Assembly: GCF_000478585.1 (NCBI RefSeq)
Contig: NZ_ARWI01000001.1
Location: 1 to 64,000 of the forward strand
Direction of reading: 5' to 3'
Source of the DNA: Thiomicrorhabdus sp. Kp2
GTDB taxonomy: Bacteria > Pseudomonadota > Gammaproteobacteria > Thiomicrospirales > Thiomicrospiraceae
DNA length: 64,000 bases
Below, piece after piece: positions 3-64,000 of the stretch. Under the pieces are notes generated by a model. The model was not told the DNA's origin, did not search any database, and saw nothing but the letters and a program-made list of their open reading frames with translations. Made by a program: the position numbers and the translations under genes. Positions within the stretch are counted from its first letter, which is position 1. The number at the start of each line of letters is the position of its first letter.

Positions 3-1730
3 CGCCGACACTGTAACTACGGCCCAATTAACCCAATAGATGCGCATAAACTCTTTTTACGCCACGCCTTAGTTGAGGGTGAGTTGTTTACCAATGCCAA
101 ATTTTTTGTACATAACCAAGCCCTAATTCAAAAGGTTGAAAAGCTCGAGCATAAGTTACGTCGTCCAGACTTTTTGGTGGATGAAGAGGTGCTTTATCAG
201 TTTTACGATGAGCGCATTCCCAAACATATTTACAGTAAGCCCGCCTTTGAAAAGTGGGTGAAAAAAACTGAAAAAGAGTCACCTAAAAAACTCGAAGCCC
301 TGTTTTTAACCGAACAAGATTTAATGAAGCAGTCGGCAAGTGATTCTTTATTGCTTGATTTTCCTGACCAGGTGCATTTAAGCAATCAAATGTCATTAGA
401 GGTCGATTACCATTTTGAACCAGGTAAAAAACGTGATGGCTTAATTTATCATTTACCCTTGTCGGGTTTAAACAGTGTGCAGTCAGAAGACTTTGAATGG
501 TTAACACCAGGCCTGTTAAAAGAGAAAACAGCCTTTTACATTAAGTCACTACCTAAATCTTTGCGTAAACAGTTTATTCCTGCGCCGCAATATGCCGATT
601 TGGTTTTGACAGAAATGAGTCCCGATAAAATATTGAGTGGTTCTAAAAAAGAGCCGTATTTAAATCAATTGGTTTGGGCGTTAAATCGACGTGCTAACGT
701 AAAGGTCTCGCTCAATGATTTAAGTGATGTAGTCTTGCCAGAGCATTTAAAACCCTATTTTGTGCTTGAGGATGATAAAGGTCGTAAGCTCGCAGAAAAT
801 AGCCGTTTATTGGCGTTAAAAGAAGAATACCAACATTTAGTGGATGCTAAAATTCAAAAACATCAAGCTCAAAAACAGGCTGAAGACATCGTTATTACTG
901 AATGGGTTTTTGGCGATTTAGCGGATAGCCAAACCATTAAAAGCCAAGGCAAAGAGATGTTGGCTTACCCAGCGTTGCAATTGCAAAACAGCCAGATTGT
1001 ATTAGGCTTAATGGGCGAGCAACAAGCAGCCATGGAACAACATGGCCAAGCGGTTATCGTTTTAATTGAGCGGTTATTGTCAGATAAAAGCAAGTATTTG
1101 CAAAAGAAGCTGCCTATGCAAAAAGCCTGTTTATGTTACGCGCCTTATGGGACTTGCCAAGATTTAACCCAGCAAGTGATTGACCGAGCGTTGCATGAGC
1201 TAGTGCCTTATCCTGAAAAACTCCGTACTCAGAACGAATTTGAAAAAGTTTTGAATAAAGTGCAATCTAACTGGATTGATGTGGCTCAACGTATTGCCAA
1301 ACAGGTTAATACGATTTTTACCCTGCATCAGCAAGTCGCTAAACAGGTTAGGGGGAGGGTAAATCCCCGTTGGCTGGCGTCAGTATCCGATATTCAACAT
1401 CAGTTAGACGAGTTAATCTCAAAAGACTTTGTGCGAAATACCCCCGATTTTTGGTTTAAACAGATTGAGCGTTATTTAAAAGCGTTACAAATGCGTTTAG
1501 AGAAACTTGATTTGGATCCCAATAAAGATCAAAAATCGATTAGGGAGATACAACCATTGCTTAAAAAATATCAAGAGATTGCTCAAGAACCTGCTTACCA
1601 AAACCTACCAGGCCTGGTAGATATTCGTTGGATGCTTGAAGAGTTGCGTATTTCTTTGTTTTCTCAACCGATGAAAACCATAAAACCTGTTTCAATTCAA
1701 CGTATTGAAAAGCAAATTAAAGCGTTATGA
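3..1730 (+). CDS. hrpA: ATP-dependent RNA helicase HrpA, C-terminal part (5' end outside window)
   Basis: The reading frame is open from the first bases of the window with no credible start, so this is the C-terminal 575 residues of a protein that is normally about 1300 residues long. The first in-frame residues (NYGPINP, then HALVEGELFTN) match the junction between the DEAH helicase core and the DUF3418 tail of HrpA. The blocks LEHKLRRPDFLVDEE and FYDERIP are typical of that tail. HrpA is a DEAH-box RNA helicase that acts on mRNA and stalled ribosomes; its ATPase motifs lie upstream of the window. The gene contains one copy of the 12-bp palindrome reading Leu-Pro-Gly-Leu-Val-Asp (1607-1618) and one near-copy (506-517). 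A perfect 20-bp palindrome with a T run follows the stop codon. A TTG at 84 is an internal codon, not the start. Confidence 0.93.
   Translation, partial: RRHCNYGPINPIDAHKLFLRHALVEGELFTNAKFFVHNQALIQKVEKLEHKLRRPDFLVDEEVLYQFYDERIPKHIYSKPAFEKWVKKTEKESPKKLEALFLTEQDLMKQSASDSLLLDFPDQVHLSNQMSLEVDYHFEPGKKRDGLIYHLPLSGLNSVQSEDFEWLTPGLLKEKTAFYIKSLPKSLRKQFIPAPQYADLVLTEMSPDKILSGSKKEPYLNQLVWALNRRANVKVSLNDLSDVVLPEHLKPYFVLEDDKGRKLAENSRLLALKEEYQHLVDAKIQKHQAQKQAEDIVITEWVFGDLADSQTIKSQGKEMLAYPALQLQNSQIVLGLMGEQQAAMEQHGQAVIVLIERLLSDKSKYLQKKLPMQKACLCYAPYGTCQDLTQQVIDRALHELVPYPEKLRTQNEFEKVLNKVQSNWIDVAQRIAKQVNTIFTLHQQVAKQVRGRVNPRWLASVSDIQHQLDELISKDFVRNTPDFWFKQIERYLKALQMRLEKLDLDPNKDQKSIREIQPLLKKYQEIAQEPAYQNLPGLVDIRWMLEELRISLFSQPMKTIKPVSIQRIEKQIKAL
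1607..1618. repeat. 12-bp iterated palindrome, copy 1 (inside hrpA)
   Basis: A perfect ACCAGGCCTGGT, read in hrpA as part of LPGLVD. Confidence 0.9.
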
Positions 1731-1754
1731 TTTAGCGAAGCTTTGTTTTTACAG

Positions 1755-1777
1755 AACGACCAGGCCTGGTCGTTTTT
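1755..1777 (+). terminator. Intrinsic terminator of hrpA built on the 12-bp palindrome
   Basis: AACGACCAGGCCTGGTCGTT is a perfect 20-bp palindrome at 1755-1774, running into five T. It starts 25 bases after the hrpA stop. The 12-bp iterated palindrome is the centre of the stem. Confidence 0.6.
1759..1770. repeat. 12-bp iterated palindrome, copy 2 (hrpA terminator)
   Basis: A perfect copy at the centre of the 20-bp palindrome that forms the hrpA terminator. Confidence 0.9.
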
Positions 1778-2014
1778 AAAAATGAATATGTTTTCAATAT
1801 CGATTTGTATCTCTTATAAAGGTTTTTACGCATTTACTTGTTTCAGCGTTAAAACCGTTTTAAACTGATAAAGAATAACGAGTTTTATGCATAAAACACC
1901 TTTGTATGAGAGAGGTAGTTACAAAACATTTGTTAAACCCACAAAATGGGTTTAAGCCTGTAGGTTGGTCATCCCTCGCCAGCAAAGACTAAAAACTATA
2001 TAAGGATACGCATT

Positions 2015-2675: not shown

Positions 2676-2687
2676 ACCAGGCCTGGT
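2676..2687. repeat. 12-bp iterated palindrome, copy 3 (upstream of rluF)
   Basis: A perfect copy extended to the 16-mer TTACCAGGCCTGGTAA, between the cytochrome c terminator and rluF. Confidence 0.9.
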
Positions 2688-5360: not shown

Positions 5361-5384
5361 TAAGTTACCAGGCCTGGTAACTTA
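5361..5384. repeat. 12-bp iterated palindrome, copy 4, in a 24-bp perfect palindrome
   Basis: A perfect copy at 5367-5378 is extended symmetrically to a 24-bp perfect palindrome (TAAGTTACCAGG and its complement). The outer end overlaps the stop codon of the VF530-family gene on the - strand. There is no long T run in that direction, so terminator action is uncertain. Confidence 0.88.
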
Positions 5385-5716: not shown

Positions 5717-7057
5717 TTATTTATTTTTGGCTTCAATCCATTGTGCCATATATTTTGTGCTTTTATGCTGGTGATGGTTCAGCATGGCACCAATAAAGTT
5801 TTGGTTTCTATGATTGGTTAGATTGAGCGCGGTTTGATCAATATGTTTAATAAAGTCTACTTTTGAACTATTTTTATTTAACTCTGTATTTACATAGAGT
5901 TGAGATGCATTTTTAAAGCCTATTACTTGTTTGTTCAACCAGGCCTGGTTATCTTGGTAAAGGGTGACTGATGCGTTAACAAAGTCGTCTGTGTTATTAG
6001 CTATTATGCCAGGCCAGTTGTTTGAAGTGTTATCTGACGCAGAGTTGTGCTGAGTCATTGATTCGCAGCCTATTAAGGTTGTTACACTGGGTGTGCCATT
6101 TAACATCGCTTCAGCCAGCTTACCTTTGACGCCTGCGCCAAAACGTAAAGGGGCTAAAAGCACTCTGGCATTTTGAATGACTTCAAACGCATCTTCTGCC
6201 CAACCTTTAATTAAAAAACCTTGTTTTGGGTTGTGTAAAGCAGTCGCTTTAGGCGGTGGGTAAGCGCCATAAATATGCAGTTCGGCTTTGGGTAATTGTT
6301 GACGGATTTTAGGCCAAATAGACTCTTTTAACCAAAGTACGGCATCCCAGTTGGGTTCATGTCTAAAATTGCCAATGGTTACAAAATGCTGGCGCTCTTC
6401 AAAAGAGGGAAGTGATTGAGTGTTAATTGGCTCATACATAAACGGTAAATAGTAGAGTTGCTGTTTAGGCACTTTAAATTGCGCTTGTAATAATTGCATT
6501 TCAAATTCTGAAATCATTAAAGTTAAATCGCAACGGAAAATAGCGGCGATTTCACGTTTTGCAATGTCTGTATTGGCCATTTTTTCAAATAACCAGGCCT
6601 GGTTAGTTAAATCAAGCGGGGCTAAATCTATCTCAGTTGGCGAAGTTTTTAGGTAATCTTTAATAATTTGTTGGCGACATGCTCTTAATGAGTGCAGGTC
6701 TTCAGTGTTTAAAATTCTTAATGCCTTGGGGGCGAATTGTTCAACACGCCAACCAAACTGTTCTTCCATCATAAAACGGTCAAAAATTACCAGGCTTGGT
6801 TGTAATGCTTCAATAAAACCATCAAAACTGGAATCATTTAATGCTATGTTTTGTTCTTTAATACCATATTGTAAGAGGTCTTCTTTGTGTTCGCCAAGTC
6901 TAGCTGGGCTGGCAAAAGTAATTGTCCAACCTGCGTTTTGAAACAATTTAATGAGTTGCATCATTCTTGTTCCTGCTGCAGAGGAGTTAGGCTCGGGCCA
7001 GACGTAGCCTATAATCAATAGGTCATTAGAATTAGAAAGAGTTGATGTTTTGTTCAA
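5717..7057 (-). CDS. Glycosyltransferase, GT-B fold (GT4-like)
   Basis: 446 residues. The N-terminal half opens with LLIIGYVWPEPNSSAAGTR, a start typical of GT-B glycosyltransferases. The C-terminal half has FVTIGNFRHEPNWDAV, LHIYGAYPP and VLLAPLRFGAGVKGKLAEAM, the donor-binding region with its conserved glycine loop and acidic residue. It should transfer a sugar from a nucleotide donor; the acceptor is not predictable. No other polysaccharide genes are next to it. The start is TTG with a weak ribosome site. Two palindrome copies lie in the gene, both read as Asn-Gln-Ala-Trp-Leu, and a third one-mismatch copy is at 6789-6800. Confidence 0.85.
   Translation of the reverse strand: MNKTSTLSNSNDLLIIGYVWPEPNSSAAGTRMMQLIKLFQNAGWTITFASPARLGEHKEDLLQYGIKEQNIALNDSSFDGFIEALQPSLVIFDRFMMEEQFGWRVEQFAPKALRILNTEDLHSLRACRQQIIKDYLKTSPTEIDLAPLDLTNQAWLFEKMANTDIAKREIAAIFRCDLTLMISEFEMQLLQAQFKVPKQQLYYLPFMYEPINTQSLPSFEERQHFVTIGNFRHEPNWDAVLWLKESIWPKIRQQLPKAELHIYGAYPPPKATALHNPKQGFLIKGWAEDAFEVIQNARVLLAPLRFGAGVKGKLAEAMLNGTPSVTTLIGCESMTQHNSASDNTSNNWPGIIANNTDDFVNASVTLYQDNQAWLNKQVIGFKNASQLYVNTELNKNSSKVDFIKHIDQTALNLTNHRNQNFIGAMLNHHQHKSTKYMAQWIEAKNK
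5938..5949. repeat. 12-bp iterated palindrome, copy 5 (inside glycosyltransferase)
   Basis: A perfect copy, read on the - strand as Asn-Gln-Ala-Trp-Leu. Confidence 0.9.
6592..6603. repeat. 12-bp iterated palindrome, copy 6 (inside glycosyltransferase)
   Basis: A perfect copy, again read on the - strand as Asn-Gln-Ala-Trp-Leu. A one-mismatch copy (ACCAGGCTTGGT) is at 6789-6800 in the same gene. Confidence 0.9.
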
Positions 7058-11540: not shown

Positions 11541-12704
11541 ATGAATTTACATGAATATCAGTCAAAAGCCTTGTTTTCAGAATATGGCATTGGTGTGCCA
11601 CAAGGGCAGTTGATTACTAAGTTAGAGCAGTTAGATTCTGCATTAGATGCCGTTGGTGACAACGCATGGGTTGTTAAGGCTCAGATTCACGCAGGGGCTC
11701 GTGGTAAAGCGGGTGGTGTTAAGTTAGTTACCAACCGAGAAGAAGCTAAACAAGTTGCGAGTGAGTTACTGGGTGGCAAGCTCGCTACTATTCAAACGGC
11801 GGGTAAAGAGTTACCCATTAATAGCCTTTTGATTGAACAAACTTTAAATATTGAAGAAGAGCTGTATTTAAGTTTAGTGGTTGACCGTGTTACTCGTACC
11901 CATACATTTGTCATTTCTGCCGCTGGTGGAATGGATATTGAAGCGGTTGCAGAAGAAACACCAGAGAAAATTTTAAGTGTGCACATAGACCCTACCGTGG
12001 GTGTGATGCCTTACCAGTGTCGTGAAGTAGGTTTTGCTTTAGGTTTAACGGGAGATGCTTTTAAACAAATGGGTCAGTTAATGACGCGTTTTTATAAGTT
12101 AGCGATAGATAAAGATATTTCTCAGTTAGAGATTAATCCACTGGTTAGAACGGCAGATAACGAACTTATTGCTTTAGATGCTAAAGTCAATATTGATTCT
12201 AATGCACTTTACAGACAACCAGGCCTGGTAGAACTGCGTGACTTCTCTCAAGAAGATGAGCGTGAAGCTAAAGCGTCTGAGTATCAGTTAAACTACATTG
12301 CTTTAGACGGTGATATTGGTTGTATGGTTAACGGTGCAGGGTTAGCGATGGCAACCATGGATTTAATTAAACTCAATGGTGGTGAGCCAGCTAACTTCTT
12401 AGACGTTGGTGGAGGCGCTACACCTGAGCGTGTGGCTGAAGCCTTTAAATTGATTTTATCTTCATCAGAAGTGAAGTCGATTCTAGTGAATATTTTTGGT
12501 GGTATCGTCCGTTGTGATTTGATTGCGGAAGGTATTATCCAAGCGGTTCAAGAAGTCGGGTTAAATATTCCAGTGGTGGTTCGTCTAGAGGGAACCAATG
12601 TTGAGTTAGGTAGAGAGATTTTAGCTAACAGTGATTTAAGCATTATTACCGCAGACGGTTTAGCCGATGCAGCGCGTAAAGTTGTAGAAGTGGCAGGAGC
12701 ATAA
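11541..12704 (+). CDS. sucC: Succinate-CoA ligase (ADP-forming), beta subunit
   Basis: 387 residues, essentially the same length as E. coli SucC. An N-terminal ATP-grasp domain ([37 protein letters not shown]) precedes the CoA-ligase domain ([32 protein letters not shown]). With SucD it interconverts succinyl-CoA and succinate with substrate-level phosphorylation in the citric acid cycle. It lies five bases upstream of sucD, and no oxoglutarate dehydrogenase genes are adjacent. A palindrome copy (12218-12229) reads Gln-Pro-Gly-Leu-Val-Glu. Confidence 0.97.
12218..12229. repeat. 12-bp iterated palindrome, copy 7 (inside sucC)
   Basis: A perfect copy, read as Pro-Gly-Leu-Val in sucC. Confidence 0.9.
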
Positions 12705-13591: not shown

Positions 13592-13791
13592 TTCTTTTTA
13601 AACAAAATAGAAACCAAAACTGGGCAGAGTAAACTGTTTGCTTTGTTCAGATAAATGTCGGTTTACAAACCTAAATAAACAAAAGCAAACGATCTATTTA
13701 CTGTGATTACTGTAAAGGGTTTAGTAAAACTTTGCAGTAAAACTTACCAGGCCTGTTTGTATTCTTCTCATCGCAAAAAAAGAGATTCTCA

Positions 13792-16551: not shown

Positions 16552-17595
16552 TTGACAACACAAACACTCACAGCCAATATTCCACACGAAGCCCTAGGTG
16601 AACGCCTTGATGTGGCATTATGCCCACTATTTTCTGATTACTCGCGCAACCGCATTCAGCAATGGATCAAAGACGGTAATGTAAAGTTAGATGGTGAGGT
16701 TTGGAAAAAGCCAAAACTGACTGTCTTAGGTGGTGAAAAGGTAGAGTTGATTGCTGAAATTGAAAATACAACCGAAATTCCAGCGCAAGAAATTGAATTA
16801 GATGTGGTTTATGAAGATGATTCGATTATGGTGATTAATAAACCACCAGGCCTGGTGGTTCACCCAGGAGCAGGCAATCCTGATGGTACCTTAATGAATG
16901 CGCTATTGTTCTATAACCCAGCCTTACGTGAAGTGCCTAGAGCAGGTATTGTGCACCGTTTAGATAAAGATACCTCTGGTTTAATGGTGGTGGCAAAAAC
17001 CATTCAAGCGCAAACTAGCTTGGTTGATCAGTTACAACGCCATGAAGTAGAGCGTATTTATGATGCGGTTGTGGTGGGCAAGTTAGCGCGAGGTGGAACC
17101 GTTGATAAAGCGATTGGTCGCAGTCCTTCTGACAGAAAAAAGATGGCGGTACGAGCCTTTGGTGGTAAAGAAGCGGTTTCGCATTATCGTGTACTAGAAC
17201 ATTTTAGAGAACACACTCGTGTGCGTGTTAAGTTAGAAACTGGGCGTACTCACCAAATACGTGTGCATATGGCGCATTTAGGTTATCCGTTGGTAGGTGA
17301 TCCTGTTTATGGATCTCGTTTTAGAATTCCTAAAAAGATGCATGAAGAGTTTGTACAATTCTTGCGTGGTTTTCATCGTCAAGCGTTACATGCTGGCGCT
17401 TTAAGTTTAAAGCACCCAGTAACAGGTAAAACCTTGAAGTGGAAGGCTGCTATGCCTGATGATTTGTTTGAATTGGTTGATGTGTTGCGTGAAGACCTTG
17501 AACTTTATGAATCTCAACAGCTGGGTTATGACGAGTTTGATTATGATTATGGTGTTGAGGTAGAGTGGGTCACAGATGAAGATATTCCCGATTAA
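16552..17595 (+). CDS. rluD: 23S rRNA pseudouridine(1911/1915/1917) synthase RluD
   Basis: 347 residues from a TTG with AAAGG eight bases upstream. An N-terminal S4 domain (ERLDVAL, then SRNRIQQWIKDGNVKLDG) precedes the RluA-type core with catalytic HRLDKDTSGLMV, Asp at about 138. The segment RVHMAHLGYPLVGDPVYG is typical of RluD. It modifies helix 69 of 23S rRNA. It is followed 31 bases later by pgeF, the usual gammaproteobacterial neighbour. The palindrome at 16845-16856 reads Pro-Gly-Leu-Val in the conserved NKPPGLVVHPG block. Confidence 0.94.
   Translation: MTTQTLTANIPHEALGERLDVALCPLFSDYSRNRIQQWIKDGNVKLDGEVWKKPKLTVLGGEKVELIAEIENTTEIPAQEIELDVVYEDDSIMVINKPPGLVVHPGAGNPDGTLMNALLFYNPALREVPRAGIVHRLDKDTSGLMVVAKTIQAQTSLVDQLQRHEVERIYDAVVVGKLARGGTVDKAIGRSPSDRKKMAVRAFGGKEAVSHYRVLEHFREHTRVRVKLETGRTHQIRVHMAHLGYPLVGDPVYGSRFRIPKKMHEEFVQFLRGFHRQALHAGALSLKHPVTGKTLKWKAAMPDDLFELVDVLREDLELYESQQLGYDEFDYDYGVEVEWVTDEDIPD
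16845..16856. repeat. 12-bp iterated palindrome, copy 8 (inside rluD)
   Basis: A perfect copy, in a 20-bp perfect palindrome AACCACCAGGCCTGGTGGTT (16841-16860), read as Pro-Pro-Gly-Leu-Val-Val. Confidence 0.9.
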
Positions 17596-17626: not shown

Positions 17627-18379
17627 ATGTTTATCAGTCCAAATTGGCCCGTACCTAAAAATATCAAGGCTTTTTGTACGACTCGTAAAGGTGGGGAGAG
17701 CAAAAGACCTTTTGATTCTTTTAACTTGGCAACTCATGTCGAAGATGATTTAAATACGGTTTTACAAAATCGTCAATTGCTGCAAGAAGTCGCCCACCTT
17801 CCTTCAACGCCCATTTGGTTAAATCAACAGCATACCGATAGAGCTATCTCCTTAGTAGCGGATTCTGAATTCACTCAGCCACCTATTGCGGACGCCAGTT
17901 GGGCACAAACGCCAGATGTGGTTTGCGTGGTTATGACGGCAGACTGTTTGCCTATTTTAATCACCGATATGGATGGCACTTGCGTGGCCGCAATTCATGC
18001 AGGTTGGAAAGGTTTAGCGGATAGGATTGTTAGCAAAACCATAAAAGACCTACCTGTTGAACCCGAAAAATTAATGGCTTGGGTTGGTCCAGCTATCTCT
18101 CAACAGCATTTTGAAGTAGGTCAAGATGTGTTTGATGCGTTTATTGCAAAGGATATGAAACATAAAGCTTATTTTGAAATAAAAGAGCAAGCCGAAAATA
18201 AATATCTTGCTGACTTACCAGGCCTGGTAACTTCAGAATTGAATGCGTTAGGTGTTAATGACGTTTATCAAAGTGGATTATGCTCTTACGATGATGAAGA
18301 GCATTTTTACTCTTACCGAAGAGACGGTAAAACAGGGCGTATGGCCTCACTGATTTGGATTGAAAAGCCAACTGAATAA
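17627..18379 (+). CDS. pgeF: Purine nucleoside phosphorylase / polyphenol oxidase family protein PgeF
   Basis: 250 residues of the YfiH/DUF152 family. Conserved metal-site blocks are LNQQHTD, MTADCLPIL and AAIHAGWKGLA, then GLCSYDDEEHFYSYRRDG. Family members were described as laccase-like, as purine nucleoside phosphorylases, and as editing peptidoglycan precursors; which applies here is not visible. It is directly downstream of rluD and probably co-transcribed. The palindrome at 18217-18228 reads Leu-Pro-Gly-Leu-Val-Thr. Confidence 0.9.
   Translation: MFISPNWPVPKNIKAFCTTRKGGESKRPFDSFNLATHVEDDLNTVLQNRQLLQEVAHLPSTPIWLNQQHTDRAISLVADSEFTQPPIADASWAQTPDVVCVVMTADCLPILITDMDGTCVAAIHAGWKGLADRIVSKTIKDLPVEPEKLMAWVGPAISQQHFEVGQDVFDAFIAKDMKHKAYFEIKEQAENKYLADLPGLVTSELNALGVNDVYQSGLCSYDDEEHFYSYRRDGKTGRMASLIWIEKPTE
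18217..18228. repeat. 12-bp iterated palindrome, copy 9 (inside pgeF)
   Basis: A perfect copy with full 16-mer TTACCAGGCCTGGTAA, read as Leu-Pro-Gly-Leu-Val-Thr. Confidence 0.9.
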
Positions 18380-21493: not shown

Positions 21494-22087
21494 ATGCCAA
21501 TGCCTAAAACAGATTTATACGCAATAAATACTCCTTTAACGGTGGATAAAAAAACGGGGTTAATTGTGGGGGGGGAATATATCCAGAGCCCAAACTTTGA
21601 TAACCGCCCCAATAATGAGTTACCAGGCCTGGTGGTTGTTCACGGAATCAGTTTGCCACCAAATCAATTTGGTGGAGAGGGTATTACCCAGTTATTTACC
21701 AATCAGTTAGACCCTAAAGAACATCCTTATTATGAAGCTATTCAGCATTTAAAAGTCTCTGCACATGCCTTAATACGACGTAATGGTCAAATTATTCAAT
21801 ATGTTCCGTTTCATAAACGAGCTTGGCACGCGGGTGTTTCTGAGTTTGATGGACGTGAACGTTGTAATGATTTTTCGATTGGTATTGAATTAGAGGGTAC
21901 GGATCAAACTTGTTACACCGCTTCTCAGTATCAATCCTTATCGCGTTTGATTAAAGCATTATGGGATTCTTATCCATCGATTAAAAGAGAAAATCTAGCA
22001 GGACACTGTGATATCGCACCTGGTCGGAAAACCGATCCAGGTGAGTATTTTCTCTGGTCTTCTCTTAAACGTTTATTAGAAACCTAA
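21494..22087 (+). CDS. ampD: 1,6-anhydro-N-acetylmuramyl-L-alanine amidase AmpD
   Basis: 197 residues, cytoplasmic (no signal peptide). The amidase_2 domain shows zinc-ligand blocks VVVHGIS, KRAWHAG and AGHCDIAPGRKTDPG, with the AmpD-specific spacing. It cleaves the stem peptide from anhydro-muropeptides during peptidoglycan recycling. Two ATG codons, at 21494 and 21500, are possible; the first is used here. The palindrome at 21622-21633 reads Leu-Pro-Gly-Leu-Val-Val just before the first His ligand. Confidence 0.94.
   Translation: MPMPKTDLYAINTPLTVDKKTGLIVGGEYIQSPNFDNRPNNELPGLVVVHGISLPPNQFGGEGITQLFTNQLDPKEHPYYEAIQHLKVSAHALIRRNGQIIQYVPFHKRAWHAGVSEFDGRERCNDFSIGIELEGTDQTCYTASQYQSLSRLIKALWDSYPSIKRENLAGHCDIAPGRKTDPGEYFLWSSLKRLLET
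21622..21633. repeat. 12-bp iterated palindrome, copy 10 (inside ampD)
   Basis: A perfect copy, read as Pro-Gly-Leu-Val. Confidence 0.9.
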
Positions 22088-22137: not shown

Positions 22138-24150
22138 TTAAATGCCTGTTAGCATCAATCCAATGACATCATTATTGTAGCCATCGCCGTTTTTGTATTC
22201 TCTGTAGCCCGTGCTCACTTTGTAGCCAACAAGGTAGGTGGTGTTATTCCATTGCCATGCAATAGTGTCATTTTCACCGTTTTCTGCTTCCAGTACCTCT
22301 TTAGGCATATTGAGAATGCTCTCTGCTTTGATATCAGGATGGGTCGATGAGATGACTTTTCCATCGCGATCGATGTAGGCACTAAATGTGGTTTTATTGA
22401 TGGCATCGTTTAGGTACTTGGGTTCAGTTTCTTTTAGCATGGCAAAAAACTCAGGTTTAGAGTCAAAAATCAATGCGATACCACCTACATTGGTATTTAA
22501 GTCTTCCCACGCTTTGACTGGCGCATGATAAATATAAGTATATTCATTATCATATAGTTCAGATTTGTGAAATTCTGAAACCGTATAAGATTGAGTATCT
22601 TGCAGTTTTAAACAGCGAGCCGTTTCAGTCGGTCGTGGAAGAGTTGTGCCCACAATATGGTTTTCTGATTCATTAGACACAGCGAGTATTTTGCCTGAAT
22701 TATCATATAAAATAATATTGGTATAAACGGTATACAGGCTATTAATATAAGCGAGTATCTTGGTTAAACGTTTACTCTCTTCAGGTGTAATACTTCCTAT
22801 TTGGTGGTTTTTAGTCAAAATTTGTCTAAAGCTACTGTTTAAAGCCCACCAGCGGCAGTCATTCGCTCTTTCATAAAGGTTTCTGTCCATAACATCAATT
22901 GCCAAAGCCGCACTAAATGACGCTTTAGACTGAATTGTGTCAATCAATACTTGATGAATATGCCTAATGAATCGAGAGAAAATATCCTGAATTTCCAAGC
23001 TAATCACTTGAAAGCGGTCAAGAATAGGCAGGAATGACTTTACCTCTCGTTTTAAAGACATGATTTTGCCGTTTAAAATTACCGTTAATAAGAGGGTGCT
23101 TACCTTAAGGTTTGTCTGTTCTAAATCCTGTAAATAAAGAGGGGATTCTTTAGGGATTTCAATGCCAAGATCTTTTTTATTCTGTTTGTCTTTAAACGCA
23201 TCATTCATTTCAATTTCGGCATAGCCTAACCAGGGCAAACCATAGAAGCCCTGGTACCCATTTGTTTTGGTTGCAAATCTTAATGTATTGCCGTTTCTTA
23301 CGGGTTTTGAATCTTCAGAGAAAGAAGCTGTGAATTGAGTGCCCAAAGATTTTTTGCTGTTGTTTGAAGCGATTACCTTTTGCTCTTTATCAAGTAACAT
23401 TAAGGTATAGCCCGTCTGATTTTCAAGAGCGCGAAAAATGTCTTTCATTTCTTCGTCAAAATTGAAGCTTAGGCATAGCACACCAAGATTCTGTTCCGAT
23501 CCGTTTTCATTGGTTTGTGTGATTTTTTTTGCGTAAATCAGTGAGGATTGGTTCACAAACAAATCGGAGTTACGAAAAACTTCTACATAATCCTCTTTGG
23601 TGTTTAGGGCTTCTTTAATTAAAGGGTCTGATGAGTGGGTAACTGGGTTAGACTTATTTAACTTAGCCTTAATATCACCATTTGGTTTTACTAAAACAAT
23701 ATCATCATATACCGTGTATTTAGCCACATATTCTTGAATACGTTGGTCTATAAAATCATCGTCTTCAGAGGTAATGTTTTCCTTCGCCATAAACTCAATA
23801 AGGTCATCATCGGTCGCTAAAAACCCCACATCAGCGGTTCGTTCAAATAAGTTACGAATTAAAATATCTATAGTGGTTTGAGCCTTCAGCATGATTTCAC
23901 TATTAGCCTGGTTTAAGTAGCGGCCAATCAATTCGTTAATCATAATATCTCTAAGGTTCTGAAACTCTTTTTGAGTTTCAACGATTGAAACTAGCAGCTG
24001 AGAATCAATATTTTCATTATTGATTTTGCCGACCATGCCAACTGTACTCCACCATAAATCTTGGTGTTCAAGCTCTCCAATGTAAGCTTTTACTGCTGGA
24101 AGATAATTAATATAGGATTTATTGTCTAGTGAACTATTTTTTTGAGTCAT
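22138..24150 (-). CDS. Soluble double-Cache sensor-like protein without an output domain
   Basis: 670 residues with no clear signal peptide or membrane segment. Two similar modules are visible. The first has LFERTADVGFLATDDDLIEF (about 115) followed by a Cache-like region (YDDIVLVKPNGDI to LGYAEIEM). The second has NLYERANDCRWWALNSS (about 430) followed by YTNIILYDNSGKILA and SAYIDRDGKVISSTHP. Such FER(T/A)xD-Cache modules are usually input parts of chemotaxis-type proteins. Here the protein ends after the second Cache with no HAMP, MCP signalling, kinase or GGDEF domain. I infer a cytoplasmic ligand sensor acting in trans; the partner is not adjacent. Confidence 0.65.
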   Translation of the reverse strand: MTQKNSSLDNKSYINYLPAVKAYIGELEHQDLWWSTVGMVGKINNENIDSQLLVSIVETQKEFQNLRDIMINELIGRYLNQANSEIMLKAQTTIDILIRNLFERTADVGFLATDDDLIEFMAKENITSEDDDFIDQRIQEYVAKYTVYDDIVLVKPNGDIKAKLNKSNPVTHSSDPLIKEALNTKEDYVEVFRNSDLFVNQSSLIYAKKITQTNENGSEQNLGVLCLSFNFDEEMKDIFRALENQTGYTLMLLDKEQKVIASNNSKKSLGTQFTASFSEDSKPVRNGNTLRFATKTNGYQGFYGLPWLGYAEIEMNDAFKDKQNKKDLGIEIPKESPLYLQDLEQTNLKVSTLLLTVILNGKIMSLKREVKSFLPILDRFQVISLEIQDIFSRFIRHIHQVLIDTIQSKASFSAALAIDVMDRNLYERANDCRWWALNSSFRQILTKNHQIGSITPEESKRLTKILAYINSLYTVYTNIILYDNSGKILAVSNESENHIVGTTLPRPTETARCLKLQDTQSYTVSEFHKSELYDNEYTYIYHAPVKAWEDLNTNVGGIALIFDSKPEFFAMLKETEPKYLNDAINKTTFSAYIDRDGKVISSTHPDIKAESILNMPKEVLEAENGENDTIAWQWNNTTYLVGYKVSTGYREYKNGDGYNNDVIGLMLTGI

Positions 24151-24518
24151 CTTGAAGGCTTTGTCTTATAACGTATGTTTTTGGAAAGGTTTGTAACTTT
24201 TTGTCACGTTATGGCTAAGCAGGTTGTATTCCAGTTTTTGTTATAGGCTGTTTTTTTAGAGAAAAAAAGATTTTTATGCGTGTTTATACTGGTTTTGAGG
24301 GGTTTTACGGTGGTTTATTAGTGGCTTAAAATGAAGGATATGAATATTTTGGATCAGGCATGCACATATTTAAAACATCTTTACCAGTCTGTATAGATAA
24401 AAGGTTTGGTTTTTGAGTTTTAAATTGACCTAGGTTTAAGCGTTAATGGCTATGGTTTCAAAAAAACACTTTAAATGTGATTAAGAATATTTTGTTTTGA
24501 TTGTAATCAAAGCAAGGA
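24151..24518. other. Intergenic region, no feature seen
   Basis: This 368-base AT-rich gap lies between the start of the double-Cache gene and the end of the small Cys-rich gene, both on the - strand. I see no open frame, repeat or convincing terminator. The bases next to 24150 probably hold the promoter of the double-Cache gene. Confidence 0.5.
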
Positions 24519-24731
24519 TTAGGCTATCCACCCAGTCTTTTTTGGTTGTGTGGTGTTTTCTTGTTTAGGGCAAAACTTTAAACAAGGTTCGCCAGAGGTT
24601 TCTAAAACCACATCACTTGGCATTCGTCTTGTTTTAAACGCAAACGCTTTACACCCTCTTGGTGAATTGGCATCCCATGTTATATAAAAATGCTGGCATT
24701 TAAAGCAGTCTATTTGATTAGTTTTATTCAT
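24519..24731 (-). CDS. Small Cys-rich conserved hypothetical protein
   Basis: 70 residues with five Cys: CFKCQHFYITWD, PRGCKAF, and EPCLKFCPK. The block FKTRRMPSDVVLETSGEPC is strongly patterned and resembles a short conserved bacterial family whose function I do not know; some database members carry a doubtful uracil-DNA glycosylase label. The Cys spacing suggests a metal site. It is monocistronic and divergent from flavodoxin. Confidence 0.65.
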   Translation of the reverse strand: MNKTNQIDCFKCQHFYITWDANSPRGCKAFAFKTRRMPSDVVLETSGEPCLKFCPKQENTTQPKKTGWIA

Positions 24732-24966
24732 GTTTCTGTATAAAAATAAGTAAATTCTTAAATAATAGACACTGTGCTATTATGCGATTCTGGTTATAAG
24801 TAGTCGTTATTGAGCATAAACAAAAGTTTGTCTAAATTGTCTTTCGTCAACAAATATTCAACTTTTTACGATTTTACGTTGCTTTACGTTAGCTTTTCTT
24901 AATAATGTAACTAAATAGTTTAAATAACATTCTACTAAAAAATTAAATGTTTAAAAGGGTAATCAA

Positions 24967-25482
24967 ATGAGTAAAGTTGGCCTATTCTACGGAACGGATA
25001 CAGGTAATACAGAACGTGTTGCAGACATGATTAAAGACAAAATTGGTGCAGATATTTGTGAAGTGCACGATATCGCCACAGCCAGTGCTGCTGATTTTGC
25101 CCAGTATGACAATATTATTCTAGGGCAACCAACCTGGTACTACGGTGAACTACAAAGTAGCTGGGATGACTTTTGGGAAGACTTTAAAGGTATCGACTTT
25201 ACAGGTAAAACAGTTGCCTGTTTTGGTCTAGGTGACCAAGCGGACTATTCAGAATATTTTTTAGACGCCATGGGTTTAATGCACGATATCGCTATTGAAA
25301 ATGGCGCAACCCCAGCAGGTTATACCTCAACAGACGGTTTTGAGTTTGATGAATCAAAAGCCATTACTGAAGACGAAGCGTTCTTTGTTGGTTTAGGAAT
25401 CGATGAAGACCAACAACCAGAGCACACTGCTGGCCGTGTTGATGAATGGGTTGACCAAATTAAAGAAGAGTTTGGTATTTAA
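24967..25482 (+). CDS. fldA: Flavodoxin (long chain)
   Basis: 171 residues. The FMN phosphate loop is GTDTGNTE (9-16), the 50s loop is GQPTWYYGELQSSWDDF, and the 90s loop is GLGDQADYSEYFLDAMG. The inserted segment after residue 120 marks a long-chain flavodoxin of the FldA/IsiB type. It is a low-potential one-electron carrier that often replaces ferredoxin under iron limitation. A ribosome site AAAGGG lies upstream. The last two-thirds of the gene is duplicated at 28664-28992, beyond the TonB-dependent receptor gene. Confidence 0.94.
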   Translation: MSKVGLFYGTDTGNTERVADMIKDKIGADICEVHDIATASAADFAQYDNIILGQPTWYYGELQSSWDDFWEDFKGIDFTGKTVACFGLGDQADYSEYFLDAMGLMHDIAIENGATPAGYTSTDGFEFDESKAITEDEAFFVGLGIDEDQQPEHTAGRVDEWVDQIKEEFGI

Positions 25483-25531
25483 AGTTGAAATCTAAAATTT
25501 AAATTATTTGTTTAAATTCTATTTTACTCTA

Positions 25532-25567
25532 AAGCCACTTAGCTATATTGCCTAAGTGGCTTTTTTT
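25532..25567 (+). terminator. Intrinsic terminator of flavodoxin
   Basis: The stem AAGCCACTTAG/CTAAGTGGCTT is followed by seven T. The same CCACTTAG/CTAAGTGG stem recurs in the terminator at 28465-28498. Confidence 0.88.
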
Positions 25568-25755
25568 ATGTGTGTTGTAAATTATTTAACCTATCTATAA
25601 GAAAATCACGGCTTCGCTAAATTTATATAAAATCGACTTGGTAAATAGTAATAAATTTAGGCTGTTACACAACCTATTGTTTAAAAGTATATGGTGGTGT
25701 GAAGTTTAGTAATTATATAAGATATTTTTATTAATACATATTAAAAAACTTTGGT

Positions 25756-26160: not shown

Positions 26161-26248
26161 AATCCAAATTATAAAGTCGTTTAGCGAATCCTTGTCTTTG
26201 GTTAGTACCAAAAAGATGAGTGTGTTTTGCTGGACTTGAATATTATTT

Positions 26249-28539: not shown

Positions 28540-28551
28540 ACCAGGCCTGGT
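28540..28551. repeat. 12-bp iterated palindrome, copy 11
   Basis: A perfect copy with the 16-mer TTACCAGGCCTGGTAA, just downstream of the receptor terminator. Confidence 0.9.
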
Positions 28552-29070: not shown

Positions 29071-29098
29071 GTTTTTCTAATTTACCAGGCCTGGCAGG

Positions 29099-37030: not shown

Positions 37031-37042
37031 ACCAGGCCTGGT
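37031..37042. repeat. 12-bp iterated palindrome, copy 12 (before lpd terminator)
   Basis: A perfect copy, 19 bases upstream of the terminator at 37061. Confidence 0.9.
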
Positions 37043-38997: not shown

Positions 38998-39009
38998 ACC
39001 AGGCCTGGT
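38998..39009. repeat. 12-bp iterated palindrome, copy 13
   Basis: A perfect copy between the small inverted-repeat element and the terminator at 39019. Confidence 0.9.
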
Positions 39010-39729: not shown

Positions 39730-40092
39730 AAGATGGGATACAGTTTAAAGTAACCAGGCCTTTATACCCCCTTTCGGGGTGTGGTAGTTTATAAAAAGAA
39801 CACGCTTAGCAAGTTTTGTTAAGCGGGTTTTATGATTTTGGCAATGCTTGATTTTTTGATTAAAGGGGGCAGAGTCCTTTAATAAAAAAGGGGTCAAAGC
39901 CGTTTTTTGTGGATAAGTTATCTTTTTAATTTTGTAGTTATTAAGTTTTCGTTGGTTTCAGTGATAGCAGGCCTGGTAGAATTGTTTTTAAAATATGTGA
40001 GGTAGGTTGTTAATCTTAAACTCTACTGAAATACACATCTGTATACTAATGGTCAAAATGCTTAATAAACCCTTATCTAAATACATTAATTT
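39730..40092. other. Intergenic stretch of broken repeats
   Basis: Contents in order: an interrupted palindrome copy (39754-39784) whose halves ACCAGGCC and TGGT are split by a 21-base hairpin-containing insert with ACCCC/GGGGT; a weak terminator (39800-39831, CGCTTAG/TTAAGCG then GGGTTTT); a run resembling the GGGGTCAGA-type repeat (GGGGGCAGAGTCC, GGGGTCAAAGCC, 39866-39901); and a one-mismatch palindrome (39966-39977). No gene is seen. Confidence 0.55.
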
Positions 40093-40783: not shown

Positions 40784-40795
40784 ACCAGGCCTGGT
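40784..40795. repeat. 12-bp iterated palindrome, copy 14
   Basis: A perfect copy downstream of the peptide gene terminator. Confidence 0.9.
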
Positions 40796-48375: not shown

Positions 48376-48588
48376 TTGAATCCTCCTAAATTGGAAATTT
48401 ACATATGTATGCTTTGTGGGTTATAACTAGAGACATATTAGGCATGTAATGTTCGGAAAAACAAATGCTTATCTTGTCCCAATCTTTCATACTAAACTAA
48501 TTTTGGGATTCATTCGAATCTTTATTGTTTATATTTAGTGTTCCGTTTTGTGGGGGAAGCTTTAAAGACTTTTAATGAGAGCCTGTCT

Positions 48589-48600
48589 ACCAGGCCTGGT
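48589..48600. repeat. 12-bp iterated palindrome, copy 15
   Basis: A perfect copy 36 bases before the start of the gene at 48637, in its 5' region. Confidence 0.9.
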
Positions 48601-48636
48601 AAACTTATCAATAACCGTTTTGTTGGAGGAGGTCTT

Positions 48637-48984
48637 ATGAACTTATTACAAGTACTTGTTTCTTGGCCAACCGTTGATTTTAAAAGAGTGTTACATAAAG
48701 AGCTTCAGCAAGTGGATAAATCGCAATGGCCTTTACAGCAAGGGCTGGCCATGAGTAACCGTGTGGCAGACACGGATATTAGTTTTATGTTACTTAATGC
48801 CGATGAAACTAAGCAAGCTTTGGTTTTGACGGTATTGGTATTTTATACTGGCATGGAGGCGGGAGATTGTTGTGCGGATGATCCAACGCCTATTTGCGAA
48901 CTACCCGAACAGTGCAAAATAAGACTGACCATTCATAAACCTGCTGGAGAAACCGATGTTTGTTTGCTTGCCGAAGGTGCGTAA
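48637..48984 (+). CDS. Conserved hypothetical protein with Cys cluster
   Basis: 115 residues from the ATG at 48637, chosen for the strong site GGAGGAGG upstream; the frame is open to a TTG at 48538, but that would read through a palindrome copy. There is no signal peptide. The sequence VLVSWPTVDFKRVL, then FYTGMEAGDCCADDPTPICELPEQC, has a notable group of four Cys that could bind a metal. I do not recognise a named family. It is monocistronic with a palindrome copy on each side. Confidence 0.7.
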   Translation: MNLLQVLVSWPTVDFKRVLHKELQQVDKSQWPLQQGLAMSNRVADTDISFMLLNADETKQALVLTVLVFYTGMEAGDCCADDPTPICELPEQCKIRLTIHKPAGETDVCLLAEGA

Positions 48985-48987: not shown

Positions 48988-48999
48988 ACCAGGCCTGGT
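48988..48999. repeat. 12-bp iterated palindrome, copy 16
   Basis: A perfect copy four bases after the stop codon of the gene at 48637. Confidence 0.9.
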
Positions 49000-50026: not shown

Positions 50027-50090
50027 GCCAGGCCTGGTAAATTAAATGTATTGAAAGCCCCGTTTGACCAGTGTGTGAAACGGGTTTTTT
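50027..50090 (+). terminator. Near-palindrome plus intrinsic terminator after the rhodanese gene
   Basis: GCCAGGCCTGGT (one mismatch to the 12-mer) is at 50027-50038. The terminator CCCGTTT/AAACGGG with T run is at 50058-50090. Confidence 0.75.
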
Positions 50091-55446: not shown

Positions 55447-55506
55447 TCCAGGCCTGGTCTCTTTTACACCAGTCAAGCCCGCTAACTGTTATTAAGCGGG
55501 TTTTTT
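55447..55506 (+). terminator. Near-palindrome plus intrinsic terminator of the symporter gene
   Basis: TCCAGGCCTGGT (one mismatch) is at 55447-55458. The terminator CCCGCT..AGCGGG with T run is at 55477-55506. Confidence 0.8.
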
Positions 55507-55581: not shown

Positions 55582-57135
55582 ATGGACTCAAATATTTCAA
55601 TAGAAGATTCAGAGCATCGACTGATATTAAGAAATTTAGAATTAACCGATTTTCCTGATCTTAAAGAGATGATGGCGATTGTGTACCCCGATATGGATGG
55701 TGCTGGGCCAGAGAAGGTGTTTAAAGCGCAATTAGCCACTTTTCCAGAGGGGCAGATATGTATTGAAGATCATGGAAAAGTGATTGCCGCCGCCTTCTCA
55801 TTAATTGTGGATTATGACAAGTTTGGCGACTATCACACTTATGAAGAGATTACTGGTAATGCTTATCTTACAACCCACGATCCAAGGGGCGATGTGTTGT
55901 ACGGCGCAGAGGTGGTGGTGCATCCTGATTACCAAGGAATGCGTTTAGGCCGCAGGTTGTACGAAGCCAGAAAAGAGCTGTGTCAGAACTTAAATCTCAA
56001 GTCGATTGTGGCTGGTGGTCGAATTCCAAATTATAAAAATCACGCCCATGAGATGTCTCCGCAAAAGTATATTGAACGGGTTAAGAAAAAAGAGATTTAC
56101 GACCCGATTTTAACCTTTCAACTCTCTAATGATTTTGAAGTGAAGAGAGTACTAAGTGACTACCTGCCTGAAGATAAAGAATCAAAAGGCTATGCTACTT
56201 TGCTGGAATGGACTAACCTCTATTACGATAAGCAGAAAGCACCACTGTTTGGTGCAGTAAAAACGTCGGCAAGAATTGGTTGTGTTCAGTGGCAAATGCG
56301 CCCCGTACAATCTATGGAAGATTTGATTCAACAGGTTGAATTTTTTGTGGATGCATTGGCCGACTATCAGTGTGATTTAGCGCTTTTTCCAGAGCTCTTT
56401 AATGCGCCATTAATGGGGATTGATACCCATCAGAACTCAATCGATTCAATTAAGGCGCTCTCTGAATATTCTGAGCAGACGGTTGAAGAAATATCTCGTT
56501 TAGCCGTTGCATATAACATCAGTATTATCGCGGGTTCACTGCCTGTTATGGAAAATAACGTGCTCTATAATGTCTCCTATTTTTGCCGAAGGGACGGTAC
56601 GATTGAATCGCAGTATAAAATTCATCCAACGCCACATGAAAAACGCGCTTGGATTATGGCGGGCGGTAATAAATTAAATGTGTTTGATACCGATTTTGGC
56701 AAAATTGGTATTTTGATTTGTTATGACGTGGAGTTTCCAGAGCTTGCACGTATGCAATCGGAAGAGGGGATGCAAATCCTGTTTGTGCCATTTTGGACAG
56801 ATACCAAAAATGCTTATTTACGGGTACGCTGCTGCGCTCAAGCCAGAGCAATTGAAAACGAATGTTATGTGGCGATTGCAGGAAGTGTGGGAAATTTACC
56901 CAAAGTGGATGGGGCAGACATTCAATATGCACAATCGGCGGTATTTTCGCCTTCTGATTTTTCGTTTCCACATGATGCGATTATGGCAGAAACGACCCCA
57001 AATACAGAAATGACACTCATTGTTGATTTAGATTTAGAAAAACTCAGTGTGCTTAAAAACGAAGGTTCTGTACGTAACTATTTAGACCGTCGCCGTGACT
57101 TATACCGTATTAATTGGATTGGCGATAAAGAGTAA
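55582..57135 (+). CDS. GNAT acetyltransferase-nitrilase fusion protein
   Basis: 517 residues. The N-terminal part (1-200) is a GNAT domain with the acetyl-CoA loop VVVHPDYQGMRLGRRLYE. The C-terminal part (about 230-510) is a carbon-nitrogen hydrolase with the triad Glu (LFPELFNAP), Lys (YKIHPTPHE) and Cys (ILICYDVEFPE). Such fusions are widespread and annotated as bifunctional GNAT/amidohydrolase, but substrates are not known to me. It is a single gene ending before a palindrome-terminator module. Confidence 0.9.
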   Translation: MDSNISIEDSEHRLILRNLELTDFPDLKEMMAIVYPDMDGAGPEKVFKAQLATFPEGQICIEDHGKVIAAAFSLIVDYDKFGDYHTYEEITGNAYLTTHDPRGDVLYGAEVVVHPDYQGMRLGRRLYEARKELCQNLNLKSIVAGGRIPNYKNHAHEMSPQKYIERVKKKEIYDPILTFQLSNDFEVKRVLSDYLPEDKESKGYATLLEWTNLYYDKQKAPLFGAVKTSARIGCVQWQMRPVQSMEDLIQQVEFFVDALADYQCDLALFPELFNAPLMGIDTHQNSIDSIKALSEYSEQTVEEISRLAVAYNISIIAGSLPVMENNVLYNVSYFCRRDGTIESQYKIHPTPHEKRAWIMAGGNKLNVFDTDFGKIGILICYDVEFPELARMQSEEGMQILFVPFWTDTKNAYLRVRCCAQARAIENECYVAIAGSVGNLPKVDGADIQYAQSAVFSPSDFSFPHDAIMAETTPNTEMTLIVDLDLEKLSVLKNEGSVRNYLDRRRDLYRINWIGDKE

Positions 57136-57148: not shown

Positions 57149-57160
57149 ACCAGGCCTGGT
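57149..57160. repeat. 12-bp iterated palindrome, copy 17
   Basis: A perfect copy with the full 16-mer TTACCAGGCCTGGTAA, 13 bases after the GNAT-nitrilase stop. Confidence 0.9.
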
Positions 57161-62707: not shown

Positions 62708-62747
62708 AAAAACCCGCAAACCAAATTAATTGGTTTAGCGGGTTTTT
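62708..62747. terminator. Bidirectional intrinsic terminator
   Basis: The stem AAACCCGC..AACCA / TGGTT..GCGGGTTT carries A-run and T-run flanks between the converging hydrolase and carbonic anhydrase genes. Confidence 0.88.
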
Positions 62748-62776
62748 AATGGTCAACCGTTAACGGTTATGATTCA

Positions 62777-63640
62777 TTATTGAATTTTAGAAAGTAATTC
62801 TGGGTTAATCACTAAGTTTCTTACCCCGTGTGCATGGTCTTCTTTAAAGACATTGCCTTTACACCATTGTGCAACACTTTCAATATTAACCTTAGCTACC
62901 TTAGGACGTACACTCCAAGTTACTTGGAAAGGAGAGCCTTTTTCATTGTAACCAGGGCCTGTCGTTGAGCCAGCATAGTTAACAGGGTCACCAGTGTTTG
63001 ATGGAATATTTAACGCCTGCTGAACACCGTTTTTTATACCATGTTTAGTCAACTCATTGAAGTCTAACGCATTCTTATCGTTCACTAAAACATACACTTG
63101 CGCTTCTACACGTAACTGAGGATTTTTAATTGAATCACTTAAGCAAGAGCCTAATGTTGGGCCAGGGTTTACCTTCGCGGTTGAGTGAACATAGTGCACT
63201 TCAATCGTGTCACCAGGGTGTAGGCTTCCGTGAGCACTAGGGCAAATATCAGAATGTACCTGTTTCGTTTCGCTTTCAGATAACTTACCAGAATAGGCGT
63301 AACCGCTTAGATAACCATGACCATCACCATTACCTGCATATTGAGTAAATTCACCCCCTTTATGCTCAGCATTTTTGTGAAAGTGAATATTACATAAGTT
63401 CATATTGGTGTAAGCTGGCGCGGCATTGAATTTAATTGTATTGCTACCTGTTGCTGAATCAATGTCTCTTGGCGATTGAGGACCAAAACCTTTACCATCT
63501 GTGTTTTTAGCTAAGGCTGCACGCTGCTCAGCAACCACTTCATCAGCCACAGGACCGTGATGTTCATGATGATTTGATGTTGTCGCACAAGCTTGTAAAA
63601 GTAGAGTTGCCGATACAACGGCAATAATTTTTGTATTCAA
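62777..63640 (-). CDS. Delta-class carbonic anhydrase, lipoprotein
   Basis: 287 residues from a TTG with GAGGATT upstream. A type II signal peptide has lipobox LQAC at Cys18, then a His-rich stretch NHHEHHG. The blocks FGPQSPRDI, NLCNIHFHKNAEHKGGEF (His86, His88, His93), HPGDTIEVHYVHST (His141, His149, His152) and FQVTWSVRPKV recall the delta carbonic anhydrase family first known from diatoms. Family assignment is from memory of these motifs. The enzyme would interconvert CO2 and bicarbonate, anchored in the cell envelope, consistent with an autotroph that concentrates inorganic carbon. Confidence 0.82.
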   Translation of the reverse strand: MNTKIIAVVSATLLLQACATTSNHHEHHGPVADEVVAEQRAALAKNTDGKGFGPQSPRDIDSATGSNTIKFNAAPAYTNMNLCNIHFHKNAEHKGGEFTQYAGNGDGHGYLSGYAYSGKLSESETKQVHSDICPSAHGSLHPGDTIEVHYVHSTAKVNPGPTLGSCLSDSIKNPQLRVEAQVYVLVNDKNALDFNELTKHGIKNGVQQALNIPSNTGDPVNYAGSTTGPGYNEKGSPFQVTWSVRPKVAKVNIESVAQWCKGNVFKEDHAHGVRNLVINPELLSKIQ

Positions 63641-64000
63641 TTTTGTAATCCTCGGTACTTATTAAAATAAATAATCTCATGCAGAATAATCTCATAAGAT
63701 TTTGATTGCTTAATTCGAAAACAGGTACATAAAAGTTGGCTTTTTTCAGAATTGTGCATAGTATATAAAAATACGCACGAATTGCGCTTAATACTTGTTT
63801 ATTTCAATCATAACCTCCGTTTATGGGTTATCGACTATTCTTATTTTTTATGAGTAATGTTAAACGAAGTTTTTCTCTCAATTTAATAAGAAAATGAATC
63901 GGTAAAAACGAATCAAAAAAATATTAGCTTTAAGAACGACAGATAAACACGTGTATTACCAGGCCTGGTAGGTTTGATTGAATAATTAAAAGGCTGAATT
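63641..64000. other. Region upstream of the carbonic anhydrase gene
   Basis: A 360-base AT-rich stretch at the window edge. It should hold the carbonic anhydrase promoter on the - strand. Apart from palindrome copy 18 near the end, no gene or clear operator was seen. Confidence 0.5.
63958..63969. repeat. 12-bp iterated palindrome, copy 18
   Basis: A perfect copy (TTACCAGGCCTGGTAG context), 318 bases upstream of the carbonic anhydrase start. Confidence 0.9.

Follow-up and report, generated by a model that had tools for sequence, protein, structure and literature searches.

A 12-bp Palindrome Repeated across the Genome of Thiomicrorhabdus sp. Kp2, Best Read as One of the Mostly Palindromic, Uptake-Sequence-Like Dialects of a Third Family

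Introduction

Why does a 12-bp palindrome, ACCAGGCCTGGT, stand 18 times in the first 64,000 nucleotides of contig NZ_ARWI01000001.1 of the marine sulfur oxidiser Thiomicrorhabdus sp. Kp2, a stretch called the window below? The initial annotation of this DNA, made from its letters alone, had listed the copies and offered four options for the word, namely an uptake sequence, a methylation site, a chromosome-organisation site or a HIP1-like iterated palindrome. In this study, the word was counted in its own genome and in 62 genomes of the order, and its alternate forms, maintenance, placement and possible partner proteins were analyzed. The best reading of the results is that uptake-sequence-like dialects, mostly palindromic, exist in a third family.

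To our knowledge, Neisseriaceae and Pasteurellaceae are the only two families with self-specific uptake words. The words described for them are the DNA uptake sequences (DUS) of the former and the uptake signal sequences (USS) of the latter. If the reading proposed here is true, a third independent family, of free-living sulfur oxidisers, would carry palindromic words, asymmetric words and word-less lineages on one tree. Questions about the evolution of specificity, the identity of the receptor, and the maintenance of uptake words by drive or by benefit would then become testable. Since some sister species carry the word and others do not, a receptor could be sought by co-variation. Over-represented oligomers have been divided into three classes, Chi, uptake sequences and highly iterated palindromes (HIPs) (Elhai 2015), against which the word is compared below.

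Abundance in the Window and the Genome

All 18 perfect copies reported for the window and all seven one-mismatch copies were recovered exactly at their positions (Table 1), as were the five copies extended to TTACCAGGCCTGGTAA (starts 2676, 5367, 18217, 28540, and 57149). In 100 dinucleotide-preserving shuffles of the window, matches with up to one mismatch averaged 0.06, with a maximum of 1. The own genome, one contig of 2,725,706 bp, contains 557 copies of ACCAGGCCTGGT and none of the reversed pattern. In a 464-kb sample of it, consisting of the window and 20 evenly spaced 20-kb stretches, ACCAGGCCTGGT tops the over-represented 12-mers with 106 copies, while an order-3 Markov model expects about 0.07 (0.133 when the palindrome is counted on both strands). 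Scaled from this sample, the genome-wide expectation is about 0.4, vs. the 557 copies observed in 2.73 Mb. The Markov comparison suggested as a check by the initial annotation revealed a strong excess. Further, each of the 20 stretches held 2–7 copies, and therefore the copies are not clustered in the window; neither a genome-wide count near expectation nor clustering in the window alone, the two outcomes named beforehand as speaking against the observation, was obtained.

The repeated unit is longer than 12 bp, as the flanks AANYT/ARNTT extend it to about 22 bp with a consensus of approximately AANYTACCAGGCCTGGTARNTT. One-base changes often affect the two outer positions and seldom fall within the core CAGGCCTG. 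A single 9–12 bp word over-represented genome-wide is expected of DUS and USS, and a palindrome iterated at high frequency is expected of HIP1-type words; ACCAGGCCTGGT shows both properties.

Distribution across the Order and Beyond

Among the 62 genomes of the order, ACCAGGCCTGGT was present at least once in 41, with hundreds of copies in many and a maximum of 718. The core CAGGCCTG was distributed bimodally, with 236–1173 copies in 32 genomes (hereafter the positives) and 0–74 in the other 30, while the core read backward, which contains CG and is therefore an imperfect compositional match, gave 0–36. A set of 369 evenly sampled gammaproteobacteria included four members of the order, and none of the 365 genomes outside the order had more than five copies of ACCAGGCCTGGT. 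In this sampling, the word is restricted to a single bacterial order. In viral contigs, 46 stretches carried a 14-mer form, and ACCAGGCCTGGT reached at most two copies in any stretch.

Alternate Words and Their Phylogeny

In stretches of relatives, the outer bases around CAGGCCTG differ by genome, for example GCC..GGC in G005, CCC..GGG in G015, and AAC..GTT in G024 and G046 (half-sites tabulated except for G060 and G061). This variation is graded, and most positive genomes are mixtures. In genus g3 (loci L077 of G015, L071 of G005, and L074 of G010), several CAGGCCTG copies lie in long palindromes such as AAAACGCCCAGGCCTGGGCGTTTT that resemble two-way terminators.

Three clear replacement words were found in relatives. 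The word of G027, ACCGGCCGGT, is palindromic like that of the window, whereas those of G023 (AACAGGCCGGGT, with the extended form AAAACTCAACAGGCCGGGT) and of G007, G008, and G013 (AAAATCTGCCAGGYTGGG, 22 copies in 175 kb) are non-palindromic; the latter occurs both ways round within single 20-kb stretches. In the sampled stretches, the alternate words stay almost wholly within their own genomes: AACAGGCCGGGT was found only in G023 and CTGCCAGGYTGG only in G007, G008, and G013, outside G027, single copies of ACCGGCCGGT were found in G015 and in G030, and the own sample contains two of AACAGGCCTGTT. The two overlapping CCWGG sites that the initial annotation had noted in ACCAGGCCTGGT are missing from ACCGGCCGGT and AACAGGCCGGGT.

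On a ComEC tree of 50 genomes, built by a quick method with support from the Shimodaira–Hasegawa-like approximate likelihood ratio test (SH-aLRT) and with deep forks partly open, the positives were grouped, requiring 8 changes vs. 15.5 for shuffled labels (0 of 500 as low; G007, G008, and G013 labelled negative). G023 falls in a clade (support 100) with G024, G041, G046, and G047, all CAGGCCTG-rich, in which ACC..GGT ends are carried by 16–38 of the 653–1173 whole-genome CAGGCCTG copies. G007, G008, and G013 form one clade, and the word is missing from several lineages of one genus. The simplest reading of this pattern would be one old origin followed by several losses and replacements. The restriction to a family and the phylogeny-following dialects expected of DUS and USS were thus both found, on a tree made by a quick method and with alternate words counted in sampled stretches only.

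No strong word was found in G025, G030, G050, or the clade G029/31/40/42/51, where a weak word could escape. The candidate AAAAAGCCAAG for the clade G037/38/44/45 was rejected, being in part two terminator hairpins counted on both strands (4 of 9 matches); the terminator-like hairpin AAAAAGCCAAG...CTTGGCTTTTT occurs once each in the word-less G037 (L230) and G044 (L232).

Site Maintenance

Maintenance of sites was assayed in BLASTN alignments, with 8-mers containing six G/C as the control. Aligned CAGGCCTG was kept in 288 of 753 site-genome comparisons between positives (217 distinct sites), vs. 3323 of 42932 (7.7%) for the control; the genomes are related and pairs were counted in both directions, and the comparisons are not independent. 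Against 14 word-less genomes, CAGGCCTG was kept in only 2 of 162 (control, 6.4%), and it was kept in 0 of 31 against G007, G008, and G013 and in 0 of 42 against G023 and G027. Similar results were obtained with a smaller first locus set, in which these five genomes were pooled with the negatives (66 of 126 kept in positives, 1 of 74 in negatives). Among 48 sites alignable in both classes, 38 were kept in some positive and one in some negative. These results indicated that position maintenance depends on the genome having the word. In the single such case shown, the same place is occupied by CCARCCTGGCAGATTTAAA in G008 and G007 and by CAGGCCTGGTTGATTTAAAA in G032.

Placement, Reading Frames, and Hairpins

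As the initial annotation had stated, copies occur both inside and between genes, among the 18 window sites as well as the 106 sample sites. By a simple gene caller, which missed at least one open reading frame (ORF; 48538–48984), 36 of the 106 are genic and 70 intergenic, while intergenic DNA makes up 19% of the bases; placement was similar at five gene-calling thresholds. The intergenic sites are distributed as 20 per 15.7 kb between convergent genes, 41 per 53.4 kb between co-directional genes, and 5 per 16.5 kb between divergent genes, with 4 at stretch ends. In eight g6 genomes, where 82% of the sequence is coding, 48 of the 63 sites lie in genes, and therefore the spacer preference is lineage-specific.

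Genic sites are biased in frame, with QAW, PGLV, and TRPG read at 17, 15, and 4 of the 36, respectively. The asymmetric words in genes are oriented one way in 7 of 7 cases in G007, G008, and G013 and in 8 of 10 in G023 (stretches of at least 5 kb). A frame and orientation bias of uptake sequences in genes has been reported (PMC2346458).

In two tests, the spacing of copies was more even than random, by counts per stretch (variance/mean 0.37 over 20 stretches, P 0.005) and by the coefficient of variation of gaps (0.79 over 100 sites, P 0.007); under-dispersion was also seen in 10-kb (P 0.039) and 5-kb bins (P 0.027).

Around intergenic sites, the flanks show hairpin-like covariation (334 paired vs. 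275 expected; 0 of 2000 shuffles as high), while around genic sites it is of borderline significance only (P 0.0545), and terminator-like sites number 24 among the 70 intergenic and 5 among the 36 genic ones. The hairpin plus T-run after genes that marks intrinsic terminators was not found for the sites at large.

Uptake Machinery and Receptor Search

A ComEC match was found in 31 of the 32 positives, and that of the own genome scores 346 bits vs. an equivalog cut-off of 190. As ComEC is present in 56 of the 62 genomes, it was rejected as a presence/absence correlate of the word. Neither G050 (99% complete, same genus), which also has no word, nor G036 (92% complete, fragmented) gave a ComEC match. 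The ComEC frame of G023 (L271, G023:C1:86900-90100) has 594 amino acids (aa), vs. mostly 800–950 aa in relatives.

PilQ (TIGR02515) matches had E-values of 1e-51 or better in 25 of the 32 positives, none over the model cut-off, and were weak or missing in G006, G035, G048, G052, G056, G057, and G060. A PilQ-like secretin was rejected as a correlate, being strong also in many word-less genomes and weak or missing in these seven positives. The L149 cluster of the own genome encodes an MshL-type secretin (575 aa) together with a GspF-like protein and a PilB/GspE-like ATPase that carries an MshEN domain, and prepilins are encoded elsewhere in this genome. Pilins were found in all ten genomes searched. 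Because 55 of 61 pilin-like proteins fell into one homology cluster, no receptor was singled out; pilin clusters were rejected as a correlate, as each of the ten genomes has one with or without the word, and so was the GspH family, whose matches in 3 of 62 genomes were all in genomes without the word. Large prepilin-like proteins (467 and 567 aa) are encoded in a cluster between genes that by eye are rpsI-like and miaB-like at L150 5524-10455, where cluster content varies by species.

Discussion

With modest confidence, we propose that the family probably has a system like that of DNA uptake sequences and that the word is its local dialect. In such a system, the palindrome of about 22 bp would be bound by a sequence-specific factor acting in trans, perhaps one of the minor pilins of a pilus-like uptake machine, and motif-bearing fragments would be taken up preferentially and recombined into the chromosome. 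Copies would then spread and be maintained at permissive places (spacers, certain codons), and some intergenic ones could be co-opted as terminator hairpins. A change of specificity would let the set drift to a new dialect, palindromic or not, and a loss of specificity would let the sites decay. Uptake as the driver, a pilin as the receptor, recombination as the means of spreading, and the order of gains, shifts, and losses are what we infer. Under the uptake reading, one would expect words replaced by others, asymmetric forms in relatives, decay of sites where the system is missing, use as terminators, and an orientation bias in genes. Among the four options offered initially, uptake is the best supported because alternate words exist (two non-palindromic), spacing is even, sites are maintained, and no methylase is common to the positives; the even spread disfavours a clustered, macrodomain-type organisation site, and a HIP1-like origin as the common cause is contradicted for the three methylase families discussed below.

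Similar to the words described here, DUS occur in hundreds to thousands of copies, form species-conserved dialects that follow phylogeny, leave some family members without an obvious dialect, and stand as inverted pairs at terminators (Frye 2013), and the 236–1173 cores of the 32 positives are similar in kind to the DUS counts in that paper. Unlike DUS, the commonest form here is a perfect palindrome, counts are lower (at most 718 of the 12-mer and 1173 of the core), and no ComP match exceeds the Pfam cut-off. In Simonsiella, two DUS overlap as a dyad and recognition by a dimer has been suggested (Frye 2013), which may serve as a precedent for the palindromic form. The USS share the design of a core with an A/T-rich flank, and the right half of the extended USS, AAAGTGCGGTCAATTTT, resembles CCTGGTCAATT, to which G021 and more weakly G006 lean; this resemblance is a lead. 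Chi is likewise a short over-represented word. It acts directionally, whereas the palindrome has no direction and the asymmetric word of G007, G008, and G013 occurs both ways in single 20-kb stretches.

Several results weigh against uptake. ComEC is just as present in word-less genomes, and G023, with its own word, has a short ComEC frame. Seven of the 32 positives lack a PilQ match better than E 1e-31, which, with the MshL type of the L149 secretin, indicates that the positives do not all share a PilQ-type machine. ComP-type pilins (PF16732, ComP_DUS) exceeded the cut-off in none of the 62 genomes (best E 9.9e-4, G051), and in none of 14 control genomes either, and no pilin or other examined gene has a presence matching the word; the USS receptor itself is only predicted (PMC12616744). 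The USS are non-palindromic with a different core, the spacer preference of the window species is not common to the eight g6 genomes, and neither the spacing in 20-kb bins of the first 431 kb (P 0.137) nor the longest gap (P 0.15) was significant. Among the open-licence papers listed, titles and abstract starts showed no uptake or competence work on these genera, and the searched text of one Hydrogenovibrio genome paper (PMC6501319) makes no mention of competence or DNA uptake; ACCAGGCCTGGT was not found in open-licence full texts, and the CAGGCCTG matches listed were unrelated by title. The system is therefore said to work like uptake sequences, not to be one, because no receptor was identified, not every positive has a PilQ-type machine, and uptake is what we infer.

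Among the rival explanations, the likeliest, though still unlikely, is an intracellular DNA-binding protein (a nucleoid, segregation, repair, or recombination factor of unknown kind) that requires numerous sites at even spacing, with alternate words reflecting changes of the protein. The length of about 22 bp, the palindromic form, and the symmetric preference in the flanks suit a dimeric protein, the sites are spread round the chromosome and maintained in position, no result here ties the word directly to uptake, and 7 of the 32 positives have only weak PilQ-like matches or none. However, two of the words are non-palindromic, and a word that several lineages of one genus do without is more likely to serve a dispensable role than a core one in the chromosome. 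The known macrodomain, segregation, and Chi sites form clusters, are few in number, or have a direction, which also counts against such a protein. A HIP1-like palindrome that a DNA methyltransferase and a mismatch repair linked to it create and keep, the proposal made for cyanobacteria (Elhai 2015), is quite improbable. Like HIP1 and the alternate HIPs, the word is an iterated palindrome with hundreds of copies that deviates mostly in its first and last bases and is replaced by alternate words, and the own genome matches PF00145 (C5), PF01555 (N6/N4), and PF02086 (D12), families matched in 24, 24, and 10 of the 62 genomes, respectively; D12 was included because a GGCC methylase of Anabaena belongs to it (Elhai 2015). 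While cyanobacterial HIPs have matching methyltransferases, 10 of the 32 positives (G006, G022, G024, G026, G046, G048, which is 86% complete, G049, G058, G060, and G061) gave no match to these three families, the only ones searched, at E 0.001. None of the three is shared by all positives, and a HIP1-type methylase belonging to them was therefore rejected as the common cause. The asymmetric words of relatives differ from HIPs as well. In G023, a D12-type methylase match (G023:C1:87209-87769) adjoins ComEC.

Intrinsic transcription terminators with the word as their conserved tip are a very improbable explanation, even though intergenic sites are in excess, denser between convergent than divergent genes, covary as hairpins, and are terminator-like in 24 of 70 cases. 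About a third of the sites are genic, with borderline covariation and few terminator-like cases; most sites of the eight g6 genomes are genic, and the non-palindromic words of G023 and of G007, G008, and G013 form no such hairpin alone. Genic and non-palindromic copies therefore exclude terminators as the general cause and as the sole function. The high copy number of one word could also stem from what remains of an element that spread, or from an artefact of sequencing or assembly. The probability of this is close to nil, as little sequence is common beyond about 22 bp, 32 genomes from different species are rich in the core, genic copies favour two frames, and aligned positions common to different genomes refute it. 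Returning to the words themselves, it is a tentative and rather doubtful possibility that they constitute a further oligomer class apart from Chi, uptake sequences, and HIPs, that is, a palindrome of about 22 bp in hundreds of copies kept by a non-methylase trans-acting factor, with at least three specificity changes in one family and with palindromic and asymmetric words interchangeable at the same place.

Sites and Neighbouring Genes in the Window

Table 1. Perfect and one-mismatch copies of ACCAGGCCTGGT in the window.
Positions	Copy	Location	Reading
506..517	one mismatch, ACCAGGCCTGTT		
1607..1618	perfect	in ORF 84-1730 (+)	PGLV
1759..1770	perfect	intergenic, 28 bp past stop of ORF 84-1730	
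2676..2687	perfect, extended TTACCAGGCCTGGTAA	intergenic	
5367..5378	perfect, extended AAGTTACCAGGCCTGGTAACTT	intergenic	
5938..5949	perfect	in ORF 5717-7057 (-)	
6592..6603	perfect	in ORF 5717-7057 (-)	
6789..6800	one mismatch, ACCAGGCTTGGT		
12218..12229	perfect	in ORF 11541-12704 (sucC-like by eye)	PGLV
13746..13757	one mismatch, ACCAGGCCTGTT		
16845..16856	perfect	in ORF 16552-17595	
18217..18228	perfect, extended TTACCAGGCCTGGTAA	in ORF 17627-18379	LPGLV
21622..21633	perfect	in ORF 21494-22087 (ampD-like by eye)	LPGLV
28540..28551	perfect, extended TTACCAGGCCTGGTAA	intergenic	
29084..29095	one mismatch, ACCAGGCCTGGC		
37031..37042	perfect	intergenic	
38998..39009	perfect	intergenic by simple gene caller	
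39966..39977	one mismatch, AGCAGGCCTGGT		
40784..40795	perfect	intergenic by simple gene caller	
48589..48600	perfect	in ORF 48538-48984 (missed by gene caller)	TRPG
48988..48999	perfect	3 bp past ORF 48538-48984	
50027..50038	one mismatch, GCCAGGCCTGGT		
55447..55458	one mismatch, TCCAGGCCTGGT		
57149..57160	perfect, extended TTACCAGGCCTGGTAA	13 bp past stop of ORF 55582-57135	
63958..63969	perfect	outside called genes, right end of window	

By eye, the window region 22138-28407 contains a TonB-receptor-like ORF (26371-28407), with a flavodoxin-like one (24967-25482) and a large sensor-like one (22138-24150) nearby, and the ORF 62777-63640 resembles a delta-type carbonic anhydrase.

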